Of a stretch of 64,000 nt of DNA, positions 46,078 to 58,564 are shown in pieces (the stretch's first letter is position 1; every line of letters begins with the position of its first letter). Source of the DNA: Bacillota bacterium. Its GTDB lineage: Bacteria > Bacillota > Clostridia > Peptostreptococcales > Anaerovoracaceae. Made by a program: the position numbers and the translations under genes. The notes under the pieces were generated by a model. The model ran no database searches and was not told where the DNA came from. It was given only the letters and a program-made list of their open reading frames with translations. The DNA lies in assembly GCA_017416795.1 (NCBI GenBank), contig JAFQBD010000066.1:1-64000 (forward strand). Direction: 5' to 3'.

Positions 46078-49000
46078 ATGAAACGTAGAGGAATCGCAGT
46101 ATTAGTATTGAGCATCTGCGTGGTGGCGATAGCCGCTTTTGGTCTCTGGTCAGCAAGTGATCAGACTTTGAATGCAGACAATGGCTCGACTACTAAATGG
46201 GTGACAGGCTCAACGCCTGAATCAGAAGCACGTGCTGCTGAAGAAGCACAGGGAAGTGACGATATAGTCACTATGCTGATGGATCAGCAGAAAAAGAATG
46301 AAGATATTGCTAAGAAGACTAATAAGAAGGACACTTCCAAGAAGTCTAACGATAAAAAAGACAATATCATAGAAGAAACAAAGGAAGATCAGAAAGATCC
46401 TGAGAAACCTTTTGATCAGGAGCATGCTGAATTGATGGATCAAGTTGAATATTCAGCAGAGACTCTGATGCTCAAGTTCAAGAAGCCTTTTGATGGAAAG
46501 GTCAATTCTGAGCTTGAAAGAGCAGGCGTTGCTAAGCTGGATGTTCTCTTCGAAATGGAAGATCACATTTGGTACACAGCATACCTTAAGAAGACAGCTG
46601 ACGTAGATAAGACTCTTGAAAATGTTAGAGAATTCAAGAAGGTTGCTGTAGCAGAATATAACTTTAAGTATGAGACTACTGCAGCTGAGTCTTTTGATGC
46701 TGCGGTAGGACCTAATCCGGGATCAGGTGAACAGCATCACCATAAGATGTGCGGCATTAAAGATGCATGGAAAAAGGTCGAAAAAGATAAGGGCTGTGGC
46801 GGCGGCAGCAGCAATGTTGTAGTGGCTGTAATCGATACAGGCGTAGACTATAACCACGAAGACCTGAAAGCCAACATGTGGTACAACTCCAAAGAAATTC
46901 CTAATAATAACATCGATGATGACGGTAATGGATACGTGGACGACTATTATGGTGTCGATATGACGGCTGATGATGGTCTTGCTGATTGGGAAAAATTCAA
47001 TGGATCCGGTATGGACGATAACGGTCACGGAACCCATGTAGCAGGTATTATCGCTGCATCAAACAACAAGACAGGTGTTGTAGGTATCGCATATAATACT
47101 AAGATCATGGCAATCAAGGCAGGCGATGCATCTGGATACTTCATGCAGAGTAATATTGCAGAAGCAATTCTCTATGCTTATGACAATGGAGCGGATGTTA
47201 TAAACATGTCATTCGGAGGAAGCGCCAGCTCTATAGCAGTACAGGATGCATTGGCTACTGCTTATTCAAGATGTACACTTGTAGCTTCAGCAGGGAATGA
47301 TGGGAAGCCAAATGAGTCCACAGATTACTATAAATTCCAACCTGATTATATGCCAAGTTATCCGGCAGCATTAAGCTATGTACTTGGTGTAATGAGTGTG
47401 GATCAAAACAATGTAGAAGCATCATTTACTAATTGGGACGCTAAACTCTACAATTCATATGAATATGAAGTATATGCACCGGGTGGTCAGATATATAGTA
47501 CTATTCCGGGAGATCGTTATGCCAAGATGAGTGGTACATCTATGGCGGCACCTGTAGTTTCTGCACAGGCAGCTATTCTTAGAAGTTACTACGAAGATAC
47601 TAATACATATCCTACTAAATTTATCTATGGACAGATCGTAGGGACTGCAGAAGATAAGGTGCAGTGTATCAATCCTGCAAAGCATACAGTTAATGGTATG
47701 CCACATAATATACCCGGTGTAGTTAATTTCTATGACTCTATCACAGAACTTCCTACACCTGATATCGGTATGAGTGACTATACTTTATTCGATGCTGAAG
47801 AATTTGTTGCAGATACTAAAGGTATCACAAAAGGCAAGGTTGATAAGAATAATGGAGACGGTATCATCGATGCAGGTGAAACTATTGCGCTCGGATTTAC
47901 TCTGAAAAACAGATGGGGAATGAGCAAAGATACCGTAGTGTCTATAGATGCGACTAATGAAGCTGGAGTTAAAAATCCTTATGTTACTTTTCTGAATAAC
48001 GATATAAATTATAAATCTATCGGTACATACTCTGAATCTGATAGTGGAAAGCTGTACTCAGAAGACGGAGAAATGTGGAACGGATGGGAAAAGCCATTTT
48101 ATATCAAGATTGCTGACAATTGTCCTAACGATTACAGCGTTACTTTGAATGTGACTATCACATACAAGAATGGATTGAATGAAAGTGATACGACAGTATA
48201 CGAAGATGAAGCTACAATTCTTCTCACAGTAAGACGTGGGGTAGAACTTCCTAATATTATCGACAAAGACACAACGTTAACTAAGGAAAATTATTATATC
48301 ATTCCTAATGCCATGACTGTTATGGAAGGAGCAACTCTGCGTATCGAAGAAGGTACTCAAATACAGTTTTGGTGCAGCGATCCACAGGATTCATATGCAG
48401 ATACAGCTATCGCATATCTGAAGGTGAACGGAAAACTGATATGTGAAGGTACTGAAGAAGAGCCTATTAAAATGTTCCCAAGTGGATGGATGGATAGATA
48501 TGTGGTTCGTATTTATACAGCTGGAGATGGCTATGCTTCGATGAAGTATACAAATGTTGTTAACCCTTATTTATACATAGACTATGCTGAAAACTGCGAA
48601 TTCACTCAGAATTATAAAGAATATTTGATGTTTAGAAGTCTTTCAAATGGAACTGTTGAAACTCAGTGGCTTCATGGTGCTGCTGAAATTAAAAATGCAA
48701 AAGAATGTGCTTTTTACAAATTAGGCGGTTCAGATAAATACGCACATTACGAGGTGAATGGTAACACATATGAAAGATGCATTTTTGTTGATTGCATGAT
48801 TAGGTATCATCAAATGAGTATGGTGGATTGTGTTTTCTACGGAAACAATAATTATTGGGATAATAAGCAAGCTGGTGGAACAAGCACATTTAATATTAAT
48901 AAAATAGAAGACCAATTAGAAATAGAAAAAGTATTTACTAATAAAGAAACAGGAACAAATTATATTACAATAAGGAATAGCACAAATACTTCTAAAGAGG

Positions 49001-52000
49001 ATGGTAGTAAATGGAGTTCCCATATAAAAGATATAGACAAATCGTATATCAAATCCTATGCACGATTTGCGGAAAAATTGGGAGGAAATATTGTAGCATT
49101 GAATTCTTTGGAAGAATATAATTTTATTTATAATAATTTGGACCTTGGATCAGATGTTTATCAATGCGGAATAATTAAAGATGTTAATTCTGGTAAGATA
49201 TTGAATTATGATGGTAGTGAAATTGTTGCTGAAATACCAGTAATTGATGATGGCATTGAAAAGTATGGATATATTGATAATGGCGGAATTCACTTTAATG
49301 CTAAAGAATATAGGCATTTTGAAAAGTATATTCTAGAAATCCCTGGTGAAGTCTACATTTCTGATATTCAGTTAGAAGATTATGTTGTTAATATGGATAC
49401 AACAGAAAAATATCAGATTGAAGCTACTGTAACACCGACAACAGCTGATGTTACTGAGCTTATTTATGAATCTCAGGATGAGGCTGTTGTTGTAGTTGAT
49501 GAAAATGGTCTGGTAACACCGGTTGGTCAGGGTTGCACAGATATTCGTGTTTATGCGCCTGACAGAGCTGTATATAACTATGTGACTATCAATGTGGCAG
49601 AAGAAGTGATCCCTACAGATATCAAAGCTAAGAAGGAAGAAATAACTCTTGCAGTAGGAGGAACTAAGAGAGTGGGTGTTGACTTCACTCCGGCAGATGC
49701 TACTAAGAAAGCACTTACATATAAAAGTTCAGATACAAAGGTTGCAACTGTTAATGATCGTGGTGTTATCAAGGCAGAATCTGTTGGCGAAGCCACTATT
49801 ACAATAACTGGCTATGAAGGCATTACTACTGCCGTTAAAGTAAATTGTGTTGTGCCTGCAGAATCGATAACATTTGAAGAGGCTGTTTATGTAACAACTT
49901 TGACTAAAGAAGATGGTACGGATTTTTATCCTGTAATTTCACCTGTGGATTCAACGCAGTCAGAAATCAAGTGGACATCTTCAAACCCTGAAGTTTGTTA
50001 TGTGGATGAAAATGGAAAATTAGTTAAACTCAAAGAAGGTACTGCCGGATTAAAAGCAGAGCTGGTCGGAACAGAGTTTTCAGCTATAGTTACTGTTGCA
50101 ATTTCAGAAAACAGAACGCCTACTAACGTAATAAAGATGGCTTCATATGATTCAAATAGATTTGCGCTACTTGAATCAGGAAATCTATGGGTATGGGGAA
50201 ATAGATATAAAAATCCTGAACAAATTCCTGTAGAAAAAGTAAAAGATTTTATGGTATTTGGAGGACAGCTATATATTTTAGATTCTTCAGGAAATGTAAA
50301 TAGCTATTATGCTCCATATAAGGAGTGGGGTTATGATTATGCAAATGCATATAAAGACACAGAAAGTGTAATAGAAAATGTTATATCATTAACGTCTAAT
50401 GAGAGAATTAACGATTCATTTTATGCAATTACAGAAGAGGGAGCTGTTTGGGCATGGGGTCAAAACGGTTTAGGACAATTGGGCGATGGAACGAAGACTT
50501 ATGCATCGTTTGATTCCCCTGTGCAGGTAGACATAAATGTTCCTGTAAAGAAGGTTATTAATGCAGTCGGAACTACGCTATTATTAACAGAAAACGGTCA
50601 TTTGTATGCGACAGGACACAACTCTGTCTCGGCAAAAAAGATTTATGAATCTGTTAAGGATGTGTACCATGATAATTATGATACTTGGCGAGTTTATATA
50701 GACTTTGGCAACAAGTGTATAAATTGGTATGCTGATACATGGCAAGAATTAGACATAATAACTAAAGCACATGAAACCGAAAAGCGATCGTATCATTATA
50801 CTTATATTAATAATGGAAAAGTCTATATTAAAGAATATAACTACGGTGGCTATAGCTTTGGAAATGAGTATGCAGAGCTAGAAAAGATTGTAGATGCACA
50901 GCAGGTATACGACTTTGGAAAGAATGTATACGTGCAGACAACTGACGGCAGATTTTATGCGGTAGGCTCTGGCAACAACTGGGGTTTAGGTAATGGTTCC
51001 GAGAAAGATACATCTGTTCCAGTTAGAGTATACTTTGGGCTGACCGATAACGTAGATGGTCTTGTATTACAGGGATGGAATGCAGCTACGGATGATAGTG
51101 GCAGGAACATCATTGCAGAGAATAGTATTGTTTTAGACTATAATCAAATGCTGGAAAAGGGCACATATTATGGCCAAATAAAACTTCAGGATAGCAAAGA
51201 AAAATCATTAACATTATCAAAAACATTAGAATTAGATAAGCTTACAATTGTTCCTACAACAAAAATGGTAGTGGGTGAAACCTATACTCTCACAATTCCG
51301 GAAGGTGCGCTTGCTGAGCGCGTAGGTTCTGTCAACGAAGCAACAACGCTTACATTTATATATAAGGGAGAAGGTTCAATAGAGACAGATGAAAGCAATG
51401 GCTCGGAATCTGGTGAAGAAGGCGATTCATCAAATGATGATGAAGTAATTGAAGATGCAAAAGTAACTCATGATACAGTTATAGACAAAGATAAGTTGGC
51501 GACTCGTGACAAGTGGACTGAAGCAACTATTACTGACGAATGGGAAAAGTTTGTTGAAGGTGGGCATAACACTAGATTCTACAGCAACGTTATTCTTAAT
51601 AGACTCAATGATGATGATACATCAACATGGCTTAGAATAACAGCACCTGAATCAGGCGAATATCAGACCATAGGACTTGGTGGCAATTACTGGGGAACTA
51701 CCAACAAGAAGCTCGTAGATAAGCAAATTCTTGATTATGATGACTTCGGAAGCCTCGCTGACATCAATGAAGGTGAAATCCTGACAGAAGCGCCTTCCAA
51801 TACTTATCCGTTTGTAGTCGATGCATATCTCGAGCTTAAGGGTGAGAAGACAGATACAGTTGGCAATGATTTAGTTACATTCGTCGTAGATTTCAATCGT
51901 GCGATGGATACTTCAATCGACTTGAGTGTACAGTTCGGCAGTGCATATCCATATGCGGACTACACTGTTGAGGGTGAATGGGCTACTGATAAGCAGTGGA

Positions 52001-52935
52001 GGGGCACTATGCAACTCACCACTATAATTGAAAACGGTTACCAGTACTGGTCCGTATCAAACGGTAAGGCTGCAGGCACATCGCTGAAGCTTTACAAAGA
52101 CTGGGGTAGATTCCCATTCATGATCGATACTTCTGCAGCCCAGTCACTGTTGATGGATGGTGAAGCTACAGAAACAGGAATCAAGCTGACATGGGAGCAG
52201 GATGACTTTGAAACATTAGCAGGATACAATGTATATCGTTCTGAGGAAGAAGACGGACAGTATAAGAAGTTAAATACTACCGTTATTCCGGCAGATACTA
52301 AGGAATGGTTCGACGATACCGTTATGCCGGGACAGAAGTACTACTATAACTTCACAGTAGTTCAGACCGACCTTACTGAATCAGAACCTTCAGGCAAGGT
52401 GATTATCACTGCGATGGATACAATGTCACCTGGAATCTACCATGACCCTGTATTCCACGCATTTACAGGAAGCAACCTTGTTATTTCAGCAGTAGTACAT
52501 GATAATGTTAAAGTTGACAATGCTACTCTGTACTATAGAACTAAAGGCGAAACAGAGTGGAAGTCAAAAGAAATGACTAATAATAACGATAAGTATTCAG
52601 CAGTTATTAGTGCGTCAGAAGTTACTGTCGATGGTATCGAATACTATATCGAAGCTACAGATGGCATTTCAACCACTAGAAAGGGTACCGCCAAAACTCC
52701 TATTGAAGTTGCAGTGCAGGTGGCTGTATCTGCAAATGATAAGGGTGATGTTGATAGCAATGGAGCTGTAGAACTTAAAGATGCGATGATGGTACTTATG
52801 GCTATAAATGACAGATATAATATGACAGAAGAAGAGTTTGCAAGAGCTGACCTTGATGATAGTGGCGTACTCGAAGCCAAGGAAGCTCTAAGAATCCTCC
52901 AGTACGTTAACGGATCCATAGGAAGCATCCTGTAG
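46078..52935 (+). CDS. Giant secreted subtilisin-family (S8) protease with RCC1 repeats and C-terminal dockerin
   Basis: 2285 residues. Signal peptide (1-33); acidic/lysine-rich linker; propeptide-like region (about 120-205); S8 domain with triad Asp253 (AVIDTGVDYNHED), His317 (NGHGTHVAG) and Ser488 (GTSMAAPVV). Next come a beta-rich middle, a segment resembling a C-type lectin fold (about 1005-1090), three Big_2-like Ig domains (about 1091-1345), RCC1-type repeats (about 1360-1645: LESGNLWVWGN, EEGAVWAWGQNGLGQLGDG), an acidic serine linker (about 1765-1800) and a fibronectin III domain (about 2020-2115). A type I dockerin (about 2222-2285) closes the chain with two Ca-binding loops, DVDSNGAVELKD and DLDDSGVLEAKE. 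The last domain should bind the cohesin protein encoded 8 bases downstream. Parts of the middle (near 48840-49350 and 50130-51270) are visibly more AT-rich. Confidence 0.9.
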   Translation: MKRRGIAVLVLSICVVAIAAFGLWSASDQTLNADNGSTTKWVTGSTPESEARAAEEAQGSDDIVTMLMDQQKKNEDIAKKTNKKDTSKKSNDKKDNIIEETKEDQKDPEKPFDQEHAELMDQVEYSAETLMLKFKKPFDGKVNSELERAGVAKLDVLFEMEDHIWYTAYLKKTADVDKTLENVREFKKVAVAEYNFKYETTAAESFDAAVGPNPGSGEQHHHKMCGIKDAWKKVEKDKGCGGGSSNVVVAVIDTGVDYNHEDLKANMWYNSKEIPNNNIDDDGNGYVDDYYGVDMTADDGLADWEKFNGSGMDDNGHGTHVAGIIAASNNKTGVVGIAYNTKIMAIKAGDASGYFMQSNIAEAILYAYDNGADVINMSFGGSASSIAVQDALATAYSRCTLVASAGNDGKPNESTDYYKFQPDYMPSYPAALSYVLGVMSVDQNNVEASFTNWDAKLYNSYEYEVYAPGGQIYSTIPGDRYAKMSGTSMAAPVVSAQAAILRSYYEDTNTYPTKFIYGQIVGTAEDKVQCINPAKHTVNGMPHNIPGVVNFYDSITELPTPDIGMSDYTLFDAEEFVADTKGITKGKVDKNNGDGIIDAGETIALGFTLKNRWGMSKDTVVSIDATNEAGVKNPYVTFLNNDINYKSIGTYSESDSGKLYSEDGEMWNGWEKPFYIKIADNCPNDYSVTLNVTITYKNGLNESDTTVYEDEATILLTVRRGVELPNIIDKDTTLTKENYYIIPNAMTVMEGATLRIEEGTQIQFWCSDPQDSYADTAIAYLKVNGKLICEGTEEEPIKMFPSGWMDRYVVRIYTAGDGYASMKYTNVVNPYLYIDYAENCEFTQNYKEYLMFRSLSNGTVETQWLHGAAEIKNAKECAFYKLGGSDKYAHYEVNGNTYERCIFVDCMIRYHQMSMVDCVFYGNNNYWDNKQAGGTSTFNINKIEDQLEIEKVFTNKETGTNYITIRNSTNTSKEDGSKWSSHIKDIDKSYIKSYARFAEKLGGNIVALNSLEEYNFIYNNLDLGSDVYQCGIIKDVNSGKILNYDGSEIVAEIPVIDDGIEKYGYIDNGGIHFNAKEYRHFEKYILEIPGEVYISDIQLEDYVVNMDTTEKYQIEATVTPTTADVTELIYESQDEAVVVVDENGLVTPVGQGCTDIRVYAPDRAVYNYVTINVAEEVIPTDIKAKKEEITLAVGGTKRVGVDFTPADATKKALTYKSSDTKVATVNDRGVIKAESVGEATITITGYEGITTAVKVNCVVPAESITFEEAVYVTTLTKEDGTDFYPVISPVDSTQSEIKWTSSNPEVCYVDENGKLVKLKEGTAGLKAELVGTEFSAIVTVAISENRTPTNVIKMASYDSNRFALLESGNLWVWGNRYKNPEQIPVEKVKDFMVFGGQLYILDSSGNVNSYYAPYKEWGYDYANAYKDTESVIENVISLTSNERINDSFYAITEEGAVWAWGQNGLGQLGDGTKTYASFDSPVQVDINVPVKKVINAVGTTLLLTENGHLYATGHNSVSAKKIYESVKDVYHDNYDTWRVYIDFGNKCINWYADTWQELDIITKAHETEKRSYHYTYINNGKVYIKEYNYGGYSFGNEYAELEKIVDAQQVYDFGKNVYVQTTDGRFYAVGSGNNWGLGNGSEKDTSVPVRVYFGLTDNVDGLVLQGWNAATDDSGRNIIAENSIVLDYNQMLEKGTYYGQIKLQDSKEKSLTLSKTLELDKLTIVPTTKMVVGETYTLTIPEGALAERVGSVNEATTLTFIYKGEGSIETDESNGSESGEEGDSSNDDEVIEDAKVTHDTVIDKDKLATRDKWTEATITDEWEKFVEGGHNTRFYSNVILNRLNDDDTSTWLRITAPESGEYQTIGLGGNYWGTTNKKLVDKQILDYDDFGSLADINEGEILTEAPSNTYPFVVDAYLELKGEKTDTVGNDLVTFVVDFNRAMDTSIDLSVQFGSAYPYADYTVEGEWATDKQWRGTMQLTTIIENGYQYWSVSNGKAAGTSLKLYKDWGRFPFMIDTSAAQSLLMDGEATETGIKLTWEQDDFETLAGYNVYRSEEEDGQYKKLNTTVIPADTKEWFDDTVMPGQKYYYNFTVVQTDLTESEPSGKVIITAMDTMSPGIYHDPVFHAFTGSNLVISAVVHDNVKVDNATLYYRTKGETEWKSKEMTNNNDKYSAVISASEVTVDGIEYYIEATDGISTTRKGTAKTPIEVAVQVAVSANDKGDVDSNGAVELKDAMMVLMAINDRYNMTEEEFARADLDDSGVLEAKEALRILQYVNGSIGSIL

Positions 52936-52943
52936 GTGGTATT

Positions 52944-55742
52944 ATGAGAAACAAGACTAAACATGTTTTGAAACGTACTTTGGCAGTAATGGTGAGCATG
53001 GCGGTGATGGTTGCCGCCATGCCAAGTCTTGCTGTTTTTGCTGAGGAAACAATACCTGAACCGGAAATATATTTGGGTAGCTATGACGTTAAACAAGGAG
53101 AATCAGTAACTGTTTCTGTAGAAGCGAAGGATTTACAAAATGTCTCGGGTTTGGAATTTGGGTTATATTATGATACAGCAGCATTTACAGTCGATTATTG
53201 TTATTCCGGATGGCTCGTAGACAGCGCAGTTAAAGACATTAATAGCAATACTAAAGGCGTAGTTAAGGCATCCTTCATATCTGCAGATGGTATAACAGGT
53301 AGCGGCACATTGGTACATGTTCAAATGACCGCGAAAGCCAATGCAGAATTAAAGACATATCCTGTAACGTTAAGCGTTTCTGAAGCATATGATACAGCCC
53401 TTAATGGCATTTCGTTAAATAAAAAAGGCGGAAGTATTACTGTCAAAGAAAAAACGCAGATTGTCGAGCACATATATTTTTATCCGGAGCTTAGCAAATA
53501 TAGTGTGGAAGCGGGGGAAGCTTTTTCATACATATTTAGAAGTGGAAACATAAGTGATTTCGCAGGTGGTGAATTCGTGTTTTCTTATAATCCGGATTTA
53601 ATGGAAGTTACTAGCACTTCGTTGGGGGATGCATTCAAGACAGAAAATGCTATTTATCAGGTAAACAAGAAGAATGCAGGAAAAGTAAAACTTTCTTATG
53701 CAAATACTGAAGCTGTGTATAGGGACTGGGAAAGTTTCTTTATAATAGATTTTAAGGCTAAAGATACTACGAAAAGCCAAGCAGAAATCAAGTTTGAAGC
53801 TACGAGTTTGTTAGATGCGGAATTAAACCCGATGACAACAAGTAACCAAACAGCGTATATCGATATAACGAAAAAAGCTGTAGAGCCTGTTTATCCAAGG
53901 CTGGGGCTGTCGTGGAATGGAAAGATAAATGCAGACAGAACATTCAATGTAGGAGTTGTTTTGCCGGCAGATACCGATGTTGCAGCCGGCGATTTTACTG
54001 TAACTTATGACACGGATAAAATTATGTGTATAGATGTTACGGCAGATGAAGGATTGGAAGCAGCAGGGGGAATAATAGTTGCCAATGATGCTGAAAAATA
54101 CAGTAAGGGAACTATAAAATTTTCCTACATAAATACTGAACCGAGCAAAAATGCCACTAAACTGGTCAATATGGAATTTCGCACAAAAAACGGATTTGTA
54201 GGAACTACAGAGCTTACACCTGTTGGGAAGGGGCTTGTTGATATTGACTTTAAGGACGTTAACTTGGACTATAAGCCAATATCGCTGAACATTAAGGCTA
54301 TAGATATAAGTAGTCTTGAACTTATAGGAGTTGAAGATACTTATGCATGCGATGGCAGTGAAGTTAGACCTAACGTTAGTATCAAAGGCTTATCATCAGA
54401 AACGGACTATGATGTTGCATATAAGAATGAAGATGATATAGGAACTGTGACCGTAACAGGTAAAGGTTCTTATAGTGGAAATATAACAAAGAGCTATAGT
54501 GTTATTCATTCTTATGGTAATACGTGGAGCACGGACGGAAATTATCACTGGTACGCATGTGATTGTGGCGCTAAAAAGTCAAATACTTCACATACGATGA
54601 AGTGGATAGTAGATAAAGTTGCGACCGAAGATGTAACAGGCCTTAAGCATGAAGAATGCGAAGTTTGCAAGTACAAGAGAAATGTGGGAACTGTTATAGA
54701 TCGGCTCCCGCATACTCATAAGATGACAAAGATAGATGCTAAAGAAGCTACATGCGATGAGGCGGGAAACATAACATATTATTCCTGTGATAAATGTCAT
54801 AAGCTGTTTGCTGATGACTTGGGAACGTCTGAAATCACGATAGTGGATACAGTTATCGATCCTAAGGGACATGACTATGATGTAACAAAGACAGAAAAGG
54901 CATCAACAACTAAAAACGGAGCCAGACATCTCAAGTGTAAGGTTTGCTATGCTATCGATAGAGAGGATATATATAAGGTTGGCGCAATAGTCCTGTCAGA
55001 TCCGGTATTAGTATATAACGGCAAGAAAAAGACTCCTGGCGTAACAGTAACTGATTCACAAGGAAATGTCATCGATAAAGCCAACTATTCAGTAACCTAT
55101 CCGGCCAAAAGAACTAAGATCGGCAAATATAAGGTGACTGTAACATTCAAAGGAGAGTACACAGGCAAGAAGACTGCAGAATTTGTAATTGCACCTAAAG
55201 CTCCGTCATCAGCGAGCGCTACTCTCTACGGTTATGACGATGTTAAATTCAGCTGGAAGAAATCTACCGGTGCCAGTGGATATGCTGTGTACTATAAGAA
55301 GGCTGATGCTACCAAGTACACCAGACTTAAAAGAACTACTAAGCTGTCATTCAAGAAAGGCAATTTGGCAGATGGTGTACAGTATAAATTCAAAGTGGTT
55401 CCATACTACAAGAGTGGAAAGACTTACTATGAATCAACAGCGTATAAGGAAGTAAGTATATACACTTTGAAGAAACTCAATACTCCTGTAGTTACTAAGA
55501 GTGGCAGCAAGGTAAAAGTTAGCTGGAAAAACATCGCCGGTGAAACCGGATATCAGATATCAAAGGCAACTAAATCCGGCAAGACAAGCATAGTTGCTAC
55601 ATACAAGACAACTAAGGGAACATATAAAATGCTTACAGCGAAGAAAGGTACTAAATATTATTATAAAGTTAGAGCGTATAAGCAGGTTGGTAAAACAAAG
55701 ATATATGGACCTTGGTCAAAAGTAAAATCGTATAAGCGTTAA
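52944..55742 (+). CDS. Secreted scaffold protein with three cohesin-like domains
   Basis: 932 residues. Signal peptide (1-33, ending AVFA). Three cohesin-like beta domains: about 37-170 (GSYDVKQGESVTVSVEAKDL, VSGLEFGLYYDTAAFTV), about 175-312 (SVEAGEAFSYIFRSGNISDF, GGEFVFSYNPDLMEV) and about 318-452 (AGDFTVTYDTDKIMCIDV). Then an Ig-like segment, a cysteine-rich stretch with repeated CxxC pairs (about 535-690: YACDCGAKK, CEVCKYKR, YSCDKCHKLF, CKVCYAI), another Ig-like unit and two fibronectin III domains (about 753-932) that are very lysine-rich. No sortase motif or SLH domain is seen, so attachment may be through the basic tail or not at all. It follows the dockerin-bearing protease in one operon and is its likely docking partner. 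The first domain is the clearest cohesin; the other two are more diverged. Confidence 0.85.
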   Translation: MRNKTKHVLKRTLAVMVSMAVMVAAMPSLAVFAEETIPEPEIYLGSYDVKQGESVTVSVEAKDLQNVSGLEFGLYYDTAAFTVDYCYSGWLVDSAVKDINSNTKGVVKASFISADGITGSGTLVHVQMTAKANAELKTYPVTLSVSEAYDTALNGISLNKKGGSITVKEKTQIVEHIYFYPELSKYSVEAGEAFSYIFRSGNISDFAGGEFVFSYNPDLMEVTSTSLGDAFKTENAIYQVNKKNAGKVKLSYANTEAVYRDWESFFIIDFKAKDTTKSQAEIKFEATSLLDAELNPMTTSNQTAYIDITKKAVEPVYPRLGLSWNGKINADRTFNVGVVLPADTDVAAGDFTVTYDTDKIMCIDVTADEGLEAAGGIIVANDAEKYSKGTIKFSYINTEPSKNATKLVNMEFRTKNGFVGTTELTPVGKGLVDIDFKDVNLDYKPISLNIKAIDISSLELIGVEDTYACDGSEVRPNVSIKGLSSETDYDVAYKNEDDIGTVTVTGKGSYSGNITKSYSVIHSYGNTWSTDGNYHWYACDCGAKKSNTSHTMKWIVDKVATEDVTGLKHEECEVCKYKRNVGTVIDRLPHTHKMTKIDAKEATCDEAGNITYYSCDKCHKLFADDLGTSEITIVDTVIDPKGHDYDVTKTEKASTTKNGARHLKCKVCYAIDREDIYKVGAIVLSDPVLVYNGKKKTPGVTVTDSQGNVIDKANYSVTYPAKRTKIGKYKVTVTFKGEYTGKKTAEFVIAPKAPSSASATLYGYDDVKFSWKKSTGASGYAVYYKKADATKYTRLKRTTKLSFKKGNLADGVQYKFKVVPYYKSGKTYYESTAYKEVSIYTLKKLNTPVVTKSGSKVKVSWKNIAGETGYQISKATKSGKTSIVATYKTTKGTYKMLTAKKGTKYYYKVRAYKQVGKTKIYGPWSKVKSYKR

Positions 55743-55815
55743 GTACGCTGATTCAAAGCATTATCTGCGGACGACAACAGAAGCTGCTTCTTTTTAAGGG
55801 GCAGCTTTTTTATTG
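55739..55815 (-). pseudogene. Orphaned 3' end of a GIY-YIG gene
   Basis: The minus-strand frame through repeat copy 1 reads IKKLPLKKKQLLLSSADNAL and four more residues to TAA. It parallels the real gene end (SSTDNVLDSQQGK) with several differences. Most simply this is the original gene end, separated from its gene by the inserted nuclease cassette. Confidence 0.6.
55769..55815. repeat. 47-bp direct repeat, copy 1 (left edge of nuclease cassette)
   Basis: Identical over 47 bp to 56848-56894. It contains a terminator-like hairpin (AGCTGC/GCAGCT plus T-run) that can end the scaffold transcript. Read on the minus strand it encodes KKLPLKKKQLLLSS, the same peptide as the C-terminal part of the GIY-YIG protein at 56812, and that frame runs on to a stop at 55739-55741. 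Confidence 0.9.
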
Positions 55816-55856
55816 TACGCAAGTATCCTGAAACAGGAATAAAAGGAAAATAATGG

Positions 55857-55885
55857 TTGACATCAAAGCTCTGAAAATGTAAAAT
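55857..55885 (+). promoter_or_regulatory. Promoter of the Rpn-type nuclease gene
   Basis: TTGACA (55857-55862) and TAAAAT (55880-55885), 17-bp spacing. Confidence 0.75.
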
Positions 55886-55954
55886 AATGGAAATAACAAG
55901 GAGATGGTAAGTTTTAAAAATTAAAGTATGGGGAAATGAAAGGAGATTATATTA

Positions 55955-56809
55955 ATGACAGGAAGTGATGTGAACAGAAAGTTTAAGGATGGAGTTTTCA
56001 GAACTCTGTTCAATGATGAGGAGAAATTGCTGGAGCTGTATAACGCACTGTCTAACAGAAACTATCCTGAAGGAACACCTATAGAGATAGTTACGCTGGA
56101 CAATGTTATATTCAATGAGATAAAGAATGATATAGCTTTTATTATTGATGATCGATTCATTATCCTTACAGAGCACCAGTCAACAAAAAGTCCAAATTTT
56201 CCACTGAGAATGCTCTGCTATCTTGCTAAGGAATATGAGAAAAAGTATTATTCAGATGCTATATACAGTACTCGCCTTGTGACGCTTCCTACTCCAGAGC
56301 TCTATGTGTTTTATGAAGGCAAGAAAGATGCACCGGTCGAATGGGAACTCAAATTATCAGATGCATTTCGCGAAAAGTGTGATACAATATCTGTAGAAGC
56401 AGTTGTGAAGGTCATCAATGTGAGCTACGAGAAAGGTGCTGAACTTTTGGAACGCTGTAAGACCATGCAGGAGTTTAGTCTTTTCATGTACATGATTAGG
56501 AAAAAATATGATGAAACAGGAAATCTTATGACTGCTGTTAGTGAATCTATATACGAGTGCATCAACAGCGATGTGCTTAAAGAGTATCTAATGGAACATA
56601 GAGGGGATATCATGAGTGTATTAGAAGTAAACTTGACTATCGAAGAAAGAGAAGCTATCCGTTGGCGTGACGGATATGAGGATGGACGCGAAGCCGGAGC
56701 ACAAAACGAGCGGTTGTTGATTGCTAAGAACCTCAAAATTGATGGCATACCTATCGATATCATCGCGAAGAATACAGGCCTCACTGTAGAAGAAATCGAG
56801 GAATTATAA
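55955..56809 (+). CDS. Rpn/PD-(D/E)XK nuclease family transposase-like protein
   Basis: A 284-residue protein of the PDDEXK_2/Rpn group: KFKDGVFRTLFNDEEKLLELYNAL at the N-terminus, NDIAFIIDDRFIILTEHQST (Asp and Glu/Gln of the nuclease core) and LRMLCYLAKEYEKKY. The C-terminus carries an acidic helical part and a small helix-turn-helix-like end (IDIIAKNTGLTVEEIEEL) often seen in this family. Such proteins promote recombination and are mobile in clostridial genomes. It has its own promoter, sits between 47-bp direct repeats and shows no link to the operon upstream. Confidence 0.88.
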   Translation: MTGSDVNRKFKDGVFRTLFNDEEKLLELYNALSNRNYPEGTPIEIVTLDNVIFNEIKNDIAFIIDDRFIILTEHQSTKSPNFPLRMLCYLAKEYEKKYYSDAIYSTRLVTLPTPELYVFYEGKKDAPVEWELKLSDAFREKCDTISVEAVVKVINVSYEKGAELLERCKTMQEFSLFMYMIRKKYDETGNLMTAVSESIYECINSDVLKEYLMEHRGDIMSVLEVNLTIEEREAIRWRDGYEDGREAGAQNERLLIAKNLKIDGIPIDIIAKNTGLTVEEIEEL

Positions 56810-56811
56810 AC

Positions 56812-57093
56812 TTATTTACCTTGTTGTGAATCCAAAACATTGTCTGTGGACGACAACAGAAGCTGCTTCTTTTTAAGGGGCAGCTTTTTTATTGCGGCTT
56901 CTCGCTTGGTAGCGGCCACTTTGTCTTCACAGTACTCGAGATAGACCGGCTCTACCGGTCCGCGTCCGCGTGTGTACTTGGCGCCTTTGCCGTTGTTATG
57001 GGCCTGCAGGCGTTTTTCGAAGTCATTGGTCCAGCCGGTATATAGGGTGCCGTCTTTGCAGCTCAGTATGTAGACACAGGGTTTATTATCCAT
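56812..57093 (-). CDS. GIY-YIG nuclease superfamily protein (UPF0213 type)
   Basis: A 93-residue single-domain GIY-YIG protein: CVYILSCKDGTLYTGWTNDF supplies the two Tyr-containing strands, followed by the conserved Arg in EKRLQAHN and KYTRGRGPVEPVYLEY with catalytic Glu. Stand-alone members of this group are widespread and of uncertain role, possibly DNA repair. Its last 27 codons lie in the direct repeat next to the nuclease cassette, so the present C-terminus was probably supplied by the insertion. Confidence 0.88.
   Translation of the reverse strand: MDNKPCVYILSCKDGTLYTGWTNDFEKRLQAHNNGKGAKYTRGRGPVEPVYLEYCEDKVAATKREAAIKKLPLKKKQLLLSSTDNVLDSQQGK
56848..56894. repeat. 47-bp direct repeat, copy 2 (right edge of nuclease cassette)
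   Basis: Exact copy of 55769-55815, offset 1079 bp. The right boundary is sharp (sequences differ immediately after 55815/56894), while the left flank fades into about 20 bp of imperfect similarity. Confidence 0.9.
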
Positions 57094-57244: not shown

Positions 57245-58564
57245 ATGATTACTAAGATTACAGACTCAATAATTTATGTAGGATGCAATGATCACGAGAT
57301 CGATCTTTTCGAGGGACAGTACGAAGTGCCAAATGGTATGGCATACAATTCATATGTGATCCTCGATGATAAAACTGCAGTTTTCGATAGTATGGAAAAG
57401 AAGGAAACTGCTGAGTGGCTCAGCAATATCGAAGAAGTTCTTGGCGGTAAAGCTCCTGATTATCTGATAGTGCAGCACATGGAACCCGATCACTCGGCAT
57501 CTATCGGAGCATTCGTAGAGAAATACCCTGAAGCTACTATCGTAGGAAACAAGAAGACTTTCATGATGATAGGCCAGTTCTTCCCGAAAATGGAGATCAA
57601 GAACACTCTGGAAGTGGCAGGCGGAGACAAGCTGTCACTGGGCAAGCATGAGCTTACATTCGTGATGGCGCCTATGGTACACTGGCCGGAAGTGATGATG
57701 ACATACGAATCATCTGAAAAAGTATTTTTCTCAGCAGACGCATTCGGCAAATTCGGAGCTCTCGATGTAGAAGAAGACTGGGCTTGCGAAGCAAGAAGAT
57801 ATTACATCGGCATCGTAGGAAAATACGGACCGCAGGTACAGGCTGTACTTAAGCAGGCTGCAGAGCTGGACATCGAGAAGATCTGTTCTTTGCATGGTCC
57901 TGTTCTTACAGAAAACCTGGGATATTATATCGACCTTTATGATACATGGTCATCTTACAGACCTGAAACTGAAGGCGTGTGCATCTGCTATACTTCAGTC
58001 TACGGCAACACTAAGAAGGCTGTAGAAATGCTGGCTACAGAGCTGGAAGCGGCTTGTGTGGAAAACGTAGTTATCAACGATCTGGCAAGATGCGACTGGG
58101 CAGAAGCCGTAGAAGATGCGTTCAGATACGACAGGCTCGTGCTGGCAACGACTACATATAACGGAGACATATTCCCTTATATGAAGCAGTTCATCGATCA
58201 CCTGACAGAAAGAAACTTCCAGAACAGAAGAGTGGCATTCATCGAAAACGGATCATGGGGTCCTGTCGCTATGAGAAAGATGATACAGTATCTGGAAGGA
58301 TGCAAAGATCTCGTTTTGGCAGAAAACAACATTACCATAAAATCATCACTTACAGATGATAATATTGAACAGATAAAGGCGCTGGCAGCAGAACTGGCAG
58401 ACGGCGCCTGCAAGGTCGAAGCTGCGGCTGAGGAAGAGAAACCTGCAGGAAAGAAGTACGAATGCAATATCTGCGGATATGTATATGAAGGCGACAGCCT
58501 GCCTGCAGATTACAAGTGTCCTCTTTGCGGAAGACCTGCTGAAGATTTTTCACTGATGGAATAA
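57245..58564 (+). CDS. Flavodiiron protein with C-terminal rubredoxin domain
   Basis: A 439-residue O2/NO-scavenging reductase. The metallo-beta-lactamase-like diiron domain (1-250) has ligands in HMEPDHS, MVHWPE, SADAFG and SLHGP; a flavodoxin domain follows (about 255-395, CICYTSVYGNTKKA, TTTYNGDIFPYM); and a rubredoxin domain ends the chain (CNICGY and CPLCGR, about 403-439). The built-in rubredoxin feeds electrons to FMN and the diiron site, reducing oxygen to water or NO to N2O, which protects an anaerobe. The ribosome site AAAGGAGAAA fits ATG 57245. Confidence 0.95.
   Translation: MITKITDSIIYVGCNDHEIDLFEGQYEVPNGMAYNSYVILDDKTAVFDSMEKKETAEWLSNIEEVLGGKAPDYLIVQHMEPDHSASIGAFVEKYPEATIVGNKKTFMMIGQFFPKMEIKNTLEVAGGDKLSLGKHELTFVMAPMVHWPEVMMTYESSEKVFFSADAFGKFGALDVEEDWACEARRYYIGIVGKYGPQVQAVLKQAAELDIEKICSLHGPVLTENLGYYIDLYDTWSSYRPETEGVCICYTSVYGNTKKAVEMLATELEAACVENVVINDLARCDWAEAVEDAFRYDRLVLATTTYNGDIFPYMKQFIDHLTERNFQNRRVAFIENGSWGPVAMRKMIQYLEGCKDLVLAENNITIKSSLTDDNIEQIKALAAELADGACKVEAAAEEEKPAGKKYECNICGYVYEGDSLPADYKCPLCGRPAEDFSLME

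Follow-up and report, generated by a model that had tools for sequence, protein, structure and literature searches.

A locus in a clostridial genome raises the question of how a single nuclease gene, with no integrase gene beside it, comes to stand between two copies of a neighbouring gene's 3' end. It lies in a stretch of 64,000 nucleotides from a Bacillota bacterium of the family Anaerovoracaceae (assembly GCA_017416795.1, contig JAFQBD010000066.1, positions 1 to 64,000; hereafter the window), and the gene, rpn, is assigned to the Rpn-type nucleases, a toxin and anti-phage family. The rpn unit sits between a co-oriented upstream gene for a cohesin/fn3 surface (scaffold) protein and a GIY-YIG domain gene convergent with both, whose stop codon is 2 bp from that of rpn (Table 1). 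We consider it likely that a single rpn unit inserted here with a long direct duplication of its target, and that insertion with long, variable and locus-specific target duplications is a recurrent mode for rpn genes in Clostridia.

Two copies of a gene end around rpn

The original prediction described exact 47-bp copies flanking a 1.08-kb unit that carries an rpn gene behind a promoter of its own. Its coordinates are correct, the second exact copy lying at 56848-56894, and the repeat extends further, to 65 nt at 94% identity with a spacing of 1,079 bp (flank-versus-flank match, E = 7.5e-22). The inserted unit codes for rpn alone, and its sequence is unique in its own genome with the exception of 89 bp of the rpn 3' end that are also found on contig C7. 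With three mismatches allowed, the repeat core occurs at two places only in the 1.94-Mb genome, while a reversed control pattern gave 0 matches and a DNA search of the genome found no further place bearing the repeat. A common dispersed terminator or repeat was therefore rejected as an explanation for the window.

The 47-bp core holds an intrinsic terminator in the plus-strand reading, consisting of a hairpin of 14 pairs (55779-55809) followed by a T-run. The terminator of copy 1 (T1) is predicted still to serve the scaffold gene, and that of copy 2 (T2) to serve rpn. As had been proposed, copy 2 falls within the GIY-YIG gene's 3' coding end and copy 1 repeats that end as an orphan with its own stop codon: read antisense, copy 1 encodes IKKLPLKKKQLLLSSADNALNQRT and copy 2 IKKLPLKKKQLLLSSTDNVLDSQQGK, each followed by a stop. 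The orphan stop in copy 1 overlaps that of the scaffold gene (TTAA, 55739-55742). The original GIY-YIG end is copy 1, beside the scaffold gene, whether the unit duplicated its target or brought a gene end with it, and the present gene ends in T2 followed by five codons and a stop of unit-side origin.

Copy 1 has a sharp right edge and a fading left edge, as the original prediction had described. The sharp edge is a real junction. The pattern alone does not demonstrate a crossover, because the core holds the terminator and in species G068 the corresponding end of the ortholog differs at 2/47 core positions, with divergence beyond the core, so that such edges are expected from constraint on terminator and protein. 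Separately, an antisense intrinsic terminator inside the GIY-YIG 3' coding end (codons AAIKK.., within copy 2 in the window) occurs in several congeners, including loci L092, L094 and L077, with differing stems; covariation of this hairpin at fixed positions across 30 species was not significant.

Flanking direct repeats at other rpn genes

Genes of the rpn family are widespread, their copy number is strongly strain-dependent, and in the published view they bear no insertion signature. We collected all rpn genes found in a genus sample and an order-wide sample (49 congeneric and 247 order-level genomes), called open reading frames, and compared the two flanks of each gene, 700 bp on either side, with one another, counting in the genus direct repeats of at least 40 bits. 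Flanking direct repeats were found at 6/31 rpn genes and 2/494 other genes of the genus, and in the independent order sample at 22/91 rpn genes and 18/359 controls, several of which span the rpn repeats themselves. When size-matched controls were taken away from rpn at the same loci, the counts were 26/116 and 1/221 (Fisher p = 2e-12, relatedness not corrected), the lone control (L229_5888) encoding a small membrane-anchored protein. Matching for gaps of at least 100 bp upstream and at least 40 bp downstream gave 23/89 and 1/47 (p = 2e-4). Left flanks compared with the right flanks of other rpn genes matched in 2 of 1,000 cases, and inverted flanking repeats occurred at 2/116 rpn genes.

In line with the original prediction, further rpn genes lie between direct repeats far more often than controls do, among them a second case at the end of a convergent gene (locus L259). 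Published work on rpn genes reports no target duplications and variable ends (PMC10327210). The variable ends agree with the clostridial cases described here. The absence of target-site duplication does not hold for this one bacterial order, in which about 22% of the sampled genes are flanked by long direct repeats, and a signature at about a fifth of the sampled rpn genes suggests a characteristic insertion mode. Many rpn genes lie at contig ends of draft genomes (G072:C13, G009:C220, G033:C8, G009:C167 and others), so repeats around them may be undercounted.

The repeats range from 28 to 431 bp, and their sequences differ at most loci. The left copy usually starts close to the stop codon of an upstream gene in the same orientation and finishes before the rpn promoter, 60-200 bp ahead of the rpn start, and the right copy usually starts less than 100 bp past the rpn stop. 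Terminators lie within the repeats at L176 (repeat GGACCGAGGATMACACCTCGGTC), L247 (a 127-bp terminator region), L286 (84 bp, 96% identity, where rpn also has its own terminator), L259 (105 bp, including 69 bp of the convergent gene's end), L285 and L291. Of the 26 cases, we count about 13 in which the upstream gene's terminator is duplicated in this way; about 6 belong to tandem rpn arrays or involve a terminator common to rpn genes, and in about 7 the duplication is of another intergenic stretch or a small gene. Arrays of palindromes of about 45 bp (TTTCGACGTGT..ACACGTCGAAA; AGTCTCCAAAT..ATTTGGAGACT; TGTATCTATTTT..AGATACA) stand beside rpn genes at L133, L132 and L171 (G030) and at L134 (G029), and sit in direct repeats of 350-480 bp.

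Empty sites and the origin of the duplication

Empty sites bear on whether the target supplied the duplicated sequence. In genus g75, the thrS locus of genome G137 has the order thrS-T1-rpn-T2 with a 104-bp repeat, and G132 carries an orthologous rpn in the same position downstream of thrS. A single T is present in G142; it runs on the left into thrS and on the right into the right flank of G137, with 95% identity to T1 and 85% to T2 plus right flank. Taken alone, the empty state of G142 may have arisen by loss through recombination between the repeats. Since thrS has no rpn within 1.5 kb downstream in five further species (G147, G182, G219, G100 and G152), the empty state is, on sequence comparison, probably ancestral; T2 matches the single thrS-side T in 4/5 of these species. 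As the single copy is already present in empty relatives, the duplicated sequence belongs to the target. A dispersed repeat of about 76-272 bp, resembling a miniature inverted-repeat transposable element, adjoins the thrS-linked rpn in this genus (G137, G132, G142 and G100; loci L285, L289, L321 and L327) and recurs at more than 20 further places.

Searches for empty sites elsewhere were uninformative: the L286 locus is rearranged in G051, no locus homologous to L259 was found in three sister species, and the neighbour gene of L243 occurs in Clostridium species without the downstream flank. E. coli rpnA and rpnE are essentially fixed, and no empty sites were found for them.

Insertion with target duplication would proceed in the window as follows. 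The rpn unit, promoter and gene, would have entered at the terminator that the scaffold gene shared with the convergent GIY-YIG gene, duplicating this terminator region. From then on, T1 would terminate the scaffold gene and T2 would both terminate rpn and encode the GIY-YIG C-terminus. In the general mode, rpn would insert just downstream of a co-oriented gene and become flanked by a direct target duplication of 28-431 bp. Duplication and insertion would be a single event, the duplication being made by a staggered break or a template switch, possibly aided by the Rpn nuclease. Such self-assisted insertion is plausible by analogy because the endonuclease RpnA cuts DNA nonspecifically and raises recombination that does not depend on RecA, for which a template-switch model has been proposed (PMC5350276).

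Several observations weigh against insertion with target duplication. At thrS, T1 and T2 share only 83% identity, and T2 has been lost or replaced in G132, the second occupied genome. An exact empty site for the window was not found, and the scaffold gene has no full-length ortholog in any of the 48 other species of the genus (0/48); the GIY-YIG gene has orthologs in 38/48. No flanking repeat was found at 90/116 sampled rpn genes, at any of 14 plasmid rpn genes (0/14; Bacilli, Selenomonas, Leptospira and one Clostridiaceae plasmid) or at E. coli rpnA-E. About 6 of the positives are tandem arrays or share an rpn-type terminator and have a different origin, and the Fisher p-values ignore the kinship of the genomes. 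Finally, no conserved unit ends were seen among the cases, and hence nothing in them marks the work of a single dedicated enzyme. Given the E. coli and plasmid genes, flanking repeats are not a property of all rpn genes; at old insertions the trace may be lost.

The original prediction held that the insertion supplied a replacement gene end. Much of this stands, as an rpn unit is inserted, copies of the neighbour's gene end lie on both sides, and the last GIY-YIG codons come from the unit side. That the element brought this end with it is the less probable part. On structural grounds, the nearest parallel to the window element is found in the fungal mitochondrial mORFs, such as the atp6, cox2 and nad3 hybrids, in which a nuclease gene lies at a gene's 3' end, the near copy completes the gene and the old end is orphaned (PMC3630166). 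At both the window and L259 a nuclease gene is likewise inserted at a gene end with a duplicated C-terminus. The nuclease of mORFs is of the LAGLIDADG or GIY-YIG type and follows the gene in the same orientation, and the inserted end is foreign by phylogeny, whereas the window rpn is convergent and most related cases involve terminators.

By the same scheme, an rpn gene already joined to the GIY-YIG 3' end of another strain would have recombined into the window locus and displaced the old end as copy 1. The order of core gene, new C-terminus, nuclease and orphan old C-terminus is that of mORFs (PMC3630166), the overlap of the orphan stop with the scaffold stop would be the natural old convergent arrangement, and L259 offers a second case. 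We nevertheless judge this unlikely: most comparable cases duplicate noncoding upstream terminator or intergenic regions, the repeats are locus-specific, the thrS copy is native to its target, and the tails of copies 1 and 2 are about equally far from the G068 ortholog. As the 47-nt core is constrained, its identity gives no date.

Homologous recombination, in which a circular or linear rpn fragment with a T-like end integrates by a single crossover at T, would need no special mechanism and predicts direct repeats placed exactly at the flanks, with homology on one side. This could fit G030, where the palindrome-array repeats are common to several rpn loci. However, T is found nowhere else in the window genome, and since the repeats differ at most loci a donor would need the local sequence every time, which makes this explanation very improbable. 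Still less credible is a remnant of a tandem rpn-T-rpn-T array whose first rpn was later lost or replaced: real arrays exist at L132 and L293, and tandem duplication is described as their source (PMC10327210), but the thrS T belongs to a non-rpn gene in empty relatives, and in the window no rpn remnant lies at T1, which abuts the stop codon of an unrelated gene.

If the rpn unit did insert with duplication of its target, a toxin gene has a route into an intergenic region that spares the neighbouring transcription unit and the convergent reading frame. The long duplications at terminators in this order would then offer a concrete signature, datable events and a break-repair prediction. A bolder proposal, which we put forward tentatively and hold to be doubtful, is that each clostridial rpn gene is a minimal mobile unit of one gene. 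Its nuclease, without a transposase or integrase, would open the chromosome at terminators and insert its own gene through break repair, in which tens to hundreds of bp of target are copied on both sides. Were this correct, the upstream gene would keep its terminator and the convergent gene its end.

Integrase elements at tRNA genes leave the insert flanked by a repeat of the gene's 3' end. The analogy with them drawn in the original prediction fails, as the window unit is a 1-kb single gene without an integrase and no attachment core is common to the loci. Nor do the rpn units resemble insertion sequences, which have terminal inverted repeats and a target duplication of short, fixed length, given the scarcity of inverted flanking repeats (2/116), the length of the duplication (28-431 bp) and the lack of common ends. 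In E. coli K-12 (L335, L336, L330 and L337), rpnA, rpnB and rpnE follow the co-oriented genes feoC, hisP and glpC, and rpnA, B, C and E end near the 3' ends of the convergent genes bioH, yfcH, panC and yfaU, a position like that in the window, without repeats.

The Rpn protein and the neighbouring genes

Single-sequence matches of the window protein to PF04754 and PF12784 fall below the cut-off (E 0.03-0.04), as does a match to TIGR01784 at its C-terminus (3.7e-9, under the family cut-off). A profile of its family aligns with PF12784-type Rpn at an hhalign probability of 98.7, and D59, E73 and Q75 (E73-x-Q75) are invariant in that family. By sequence, we assign it to a divergent Rpn family with a PD-(D/E)XK core; use of the protein to look for named close relatives found none. 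Rpn, or YhgA-like, recombination-promoting nucleases are known as toxin-antitoxin genes-within-genes (PMC5350276, PMC10327210). The window unit shares with them the family of the encoded protein, a single gene with its own promoter and horizontal mobility. We propose a candidate RpnS start by analogy (PMC10327210) at an ATG preceded by a Shine-Dalgarno-like AGAGGGG.

Rpn proteins of the same genome with unrelated N-terminal subfamilies have near-identical C-terminal 50 amino acids, a tail of antitoxin type. Examples are window 56650-56809 with G000:C7:52422-53267 (L042 9384-10271), and L123, L132, L133, L169 and L171 (G030). The mean tail score was 102.8 for 22 same-genome pairs and 59.1 for 145 different-genome pairs, a difference reached in 0/2,000 label permutations. 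It seems that toxin heads are exchanged above an antitoxin tail specific to the genome, or that the tails are homogenised.

Table 1. Features of the rpn locus and its surroundings in the window
Feature	Position	Strand	Remarks
Cohesin/fn3 surface (scaffold) protein gene, 932 aa	52944..55742	+	Pfam PF00963 Cohesin 9.2e-22, fn3; upstream of and co-oriented with rpn
Repeat copy 1 (T1): orphan GIY-YIG 3' end and predicted scaffold-gene terminator	55751..55815	+
Exact 47-nt core of copy 1	55769..55815	+
Sequence specific to the rpn unit: promoter, rpn, and last GIY-YIG codons with stop at right edge	55816..56829	+
Promoter-like site of rpn, TTGACA-17-TAAAAT	55857..55885	+	11/12 consensus matches
rpn gene, 284 aa, divergent Rpn / PD-(D/E)XK family	55955..56809	+
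Predicted internal start and short C-terminal product (RpnS-type antitoxin)	56612..56809	+	ATG 56612, AGAGGGG upstream; by analogy
Repeat copy 2 (T2): current GIY-YIG 3' coding end and predicted rpn terminator	56830..56894	+
GIY-YIG domain gene, 93 aa, convergent with rpn	56812..57093	-	PF01541, E = 2.6e-19
Flavodiiron/ODP-type flavoprotein gene, divergent from the GIY-YIG gene	57245..58564	+	Neighbour in many congeners

Neither a plasmid search with the window DNA nor PADLOC gave a match. Immediately upstream of the cohesin protein is a subtilisin-like protein of 2,285 aa whose C-terminus is dockerin-like (both within 46078-55742), and the two are possibly a non-cellulosomal cohesin-dockerin pair. 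The C-terminal region of the scaffold protein is found again at six other loci of the same genome.
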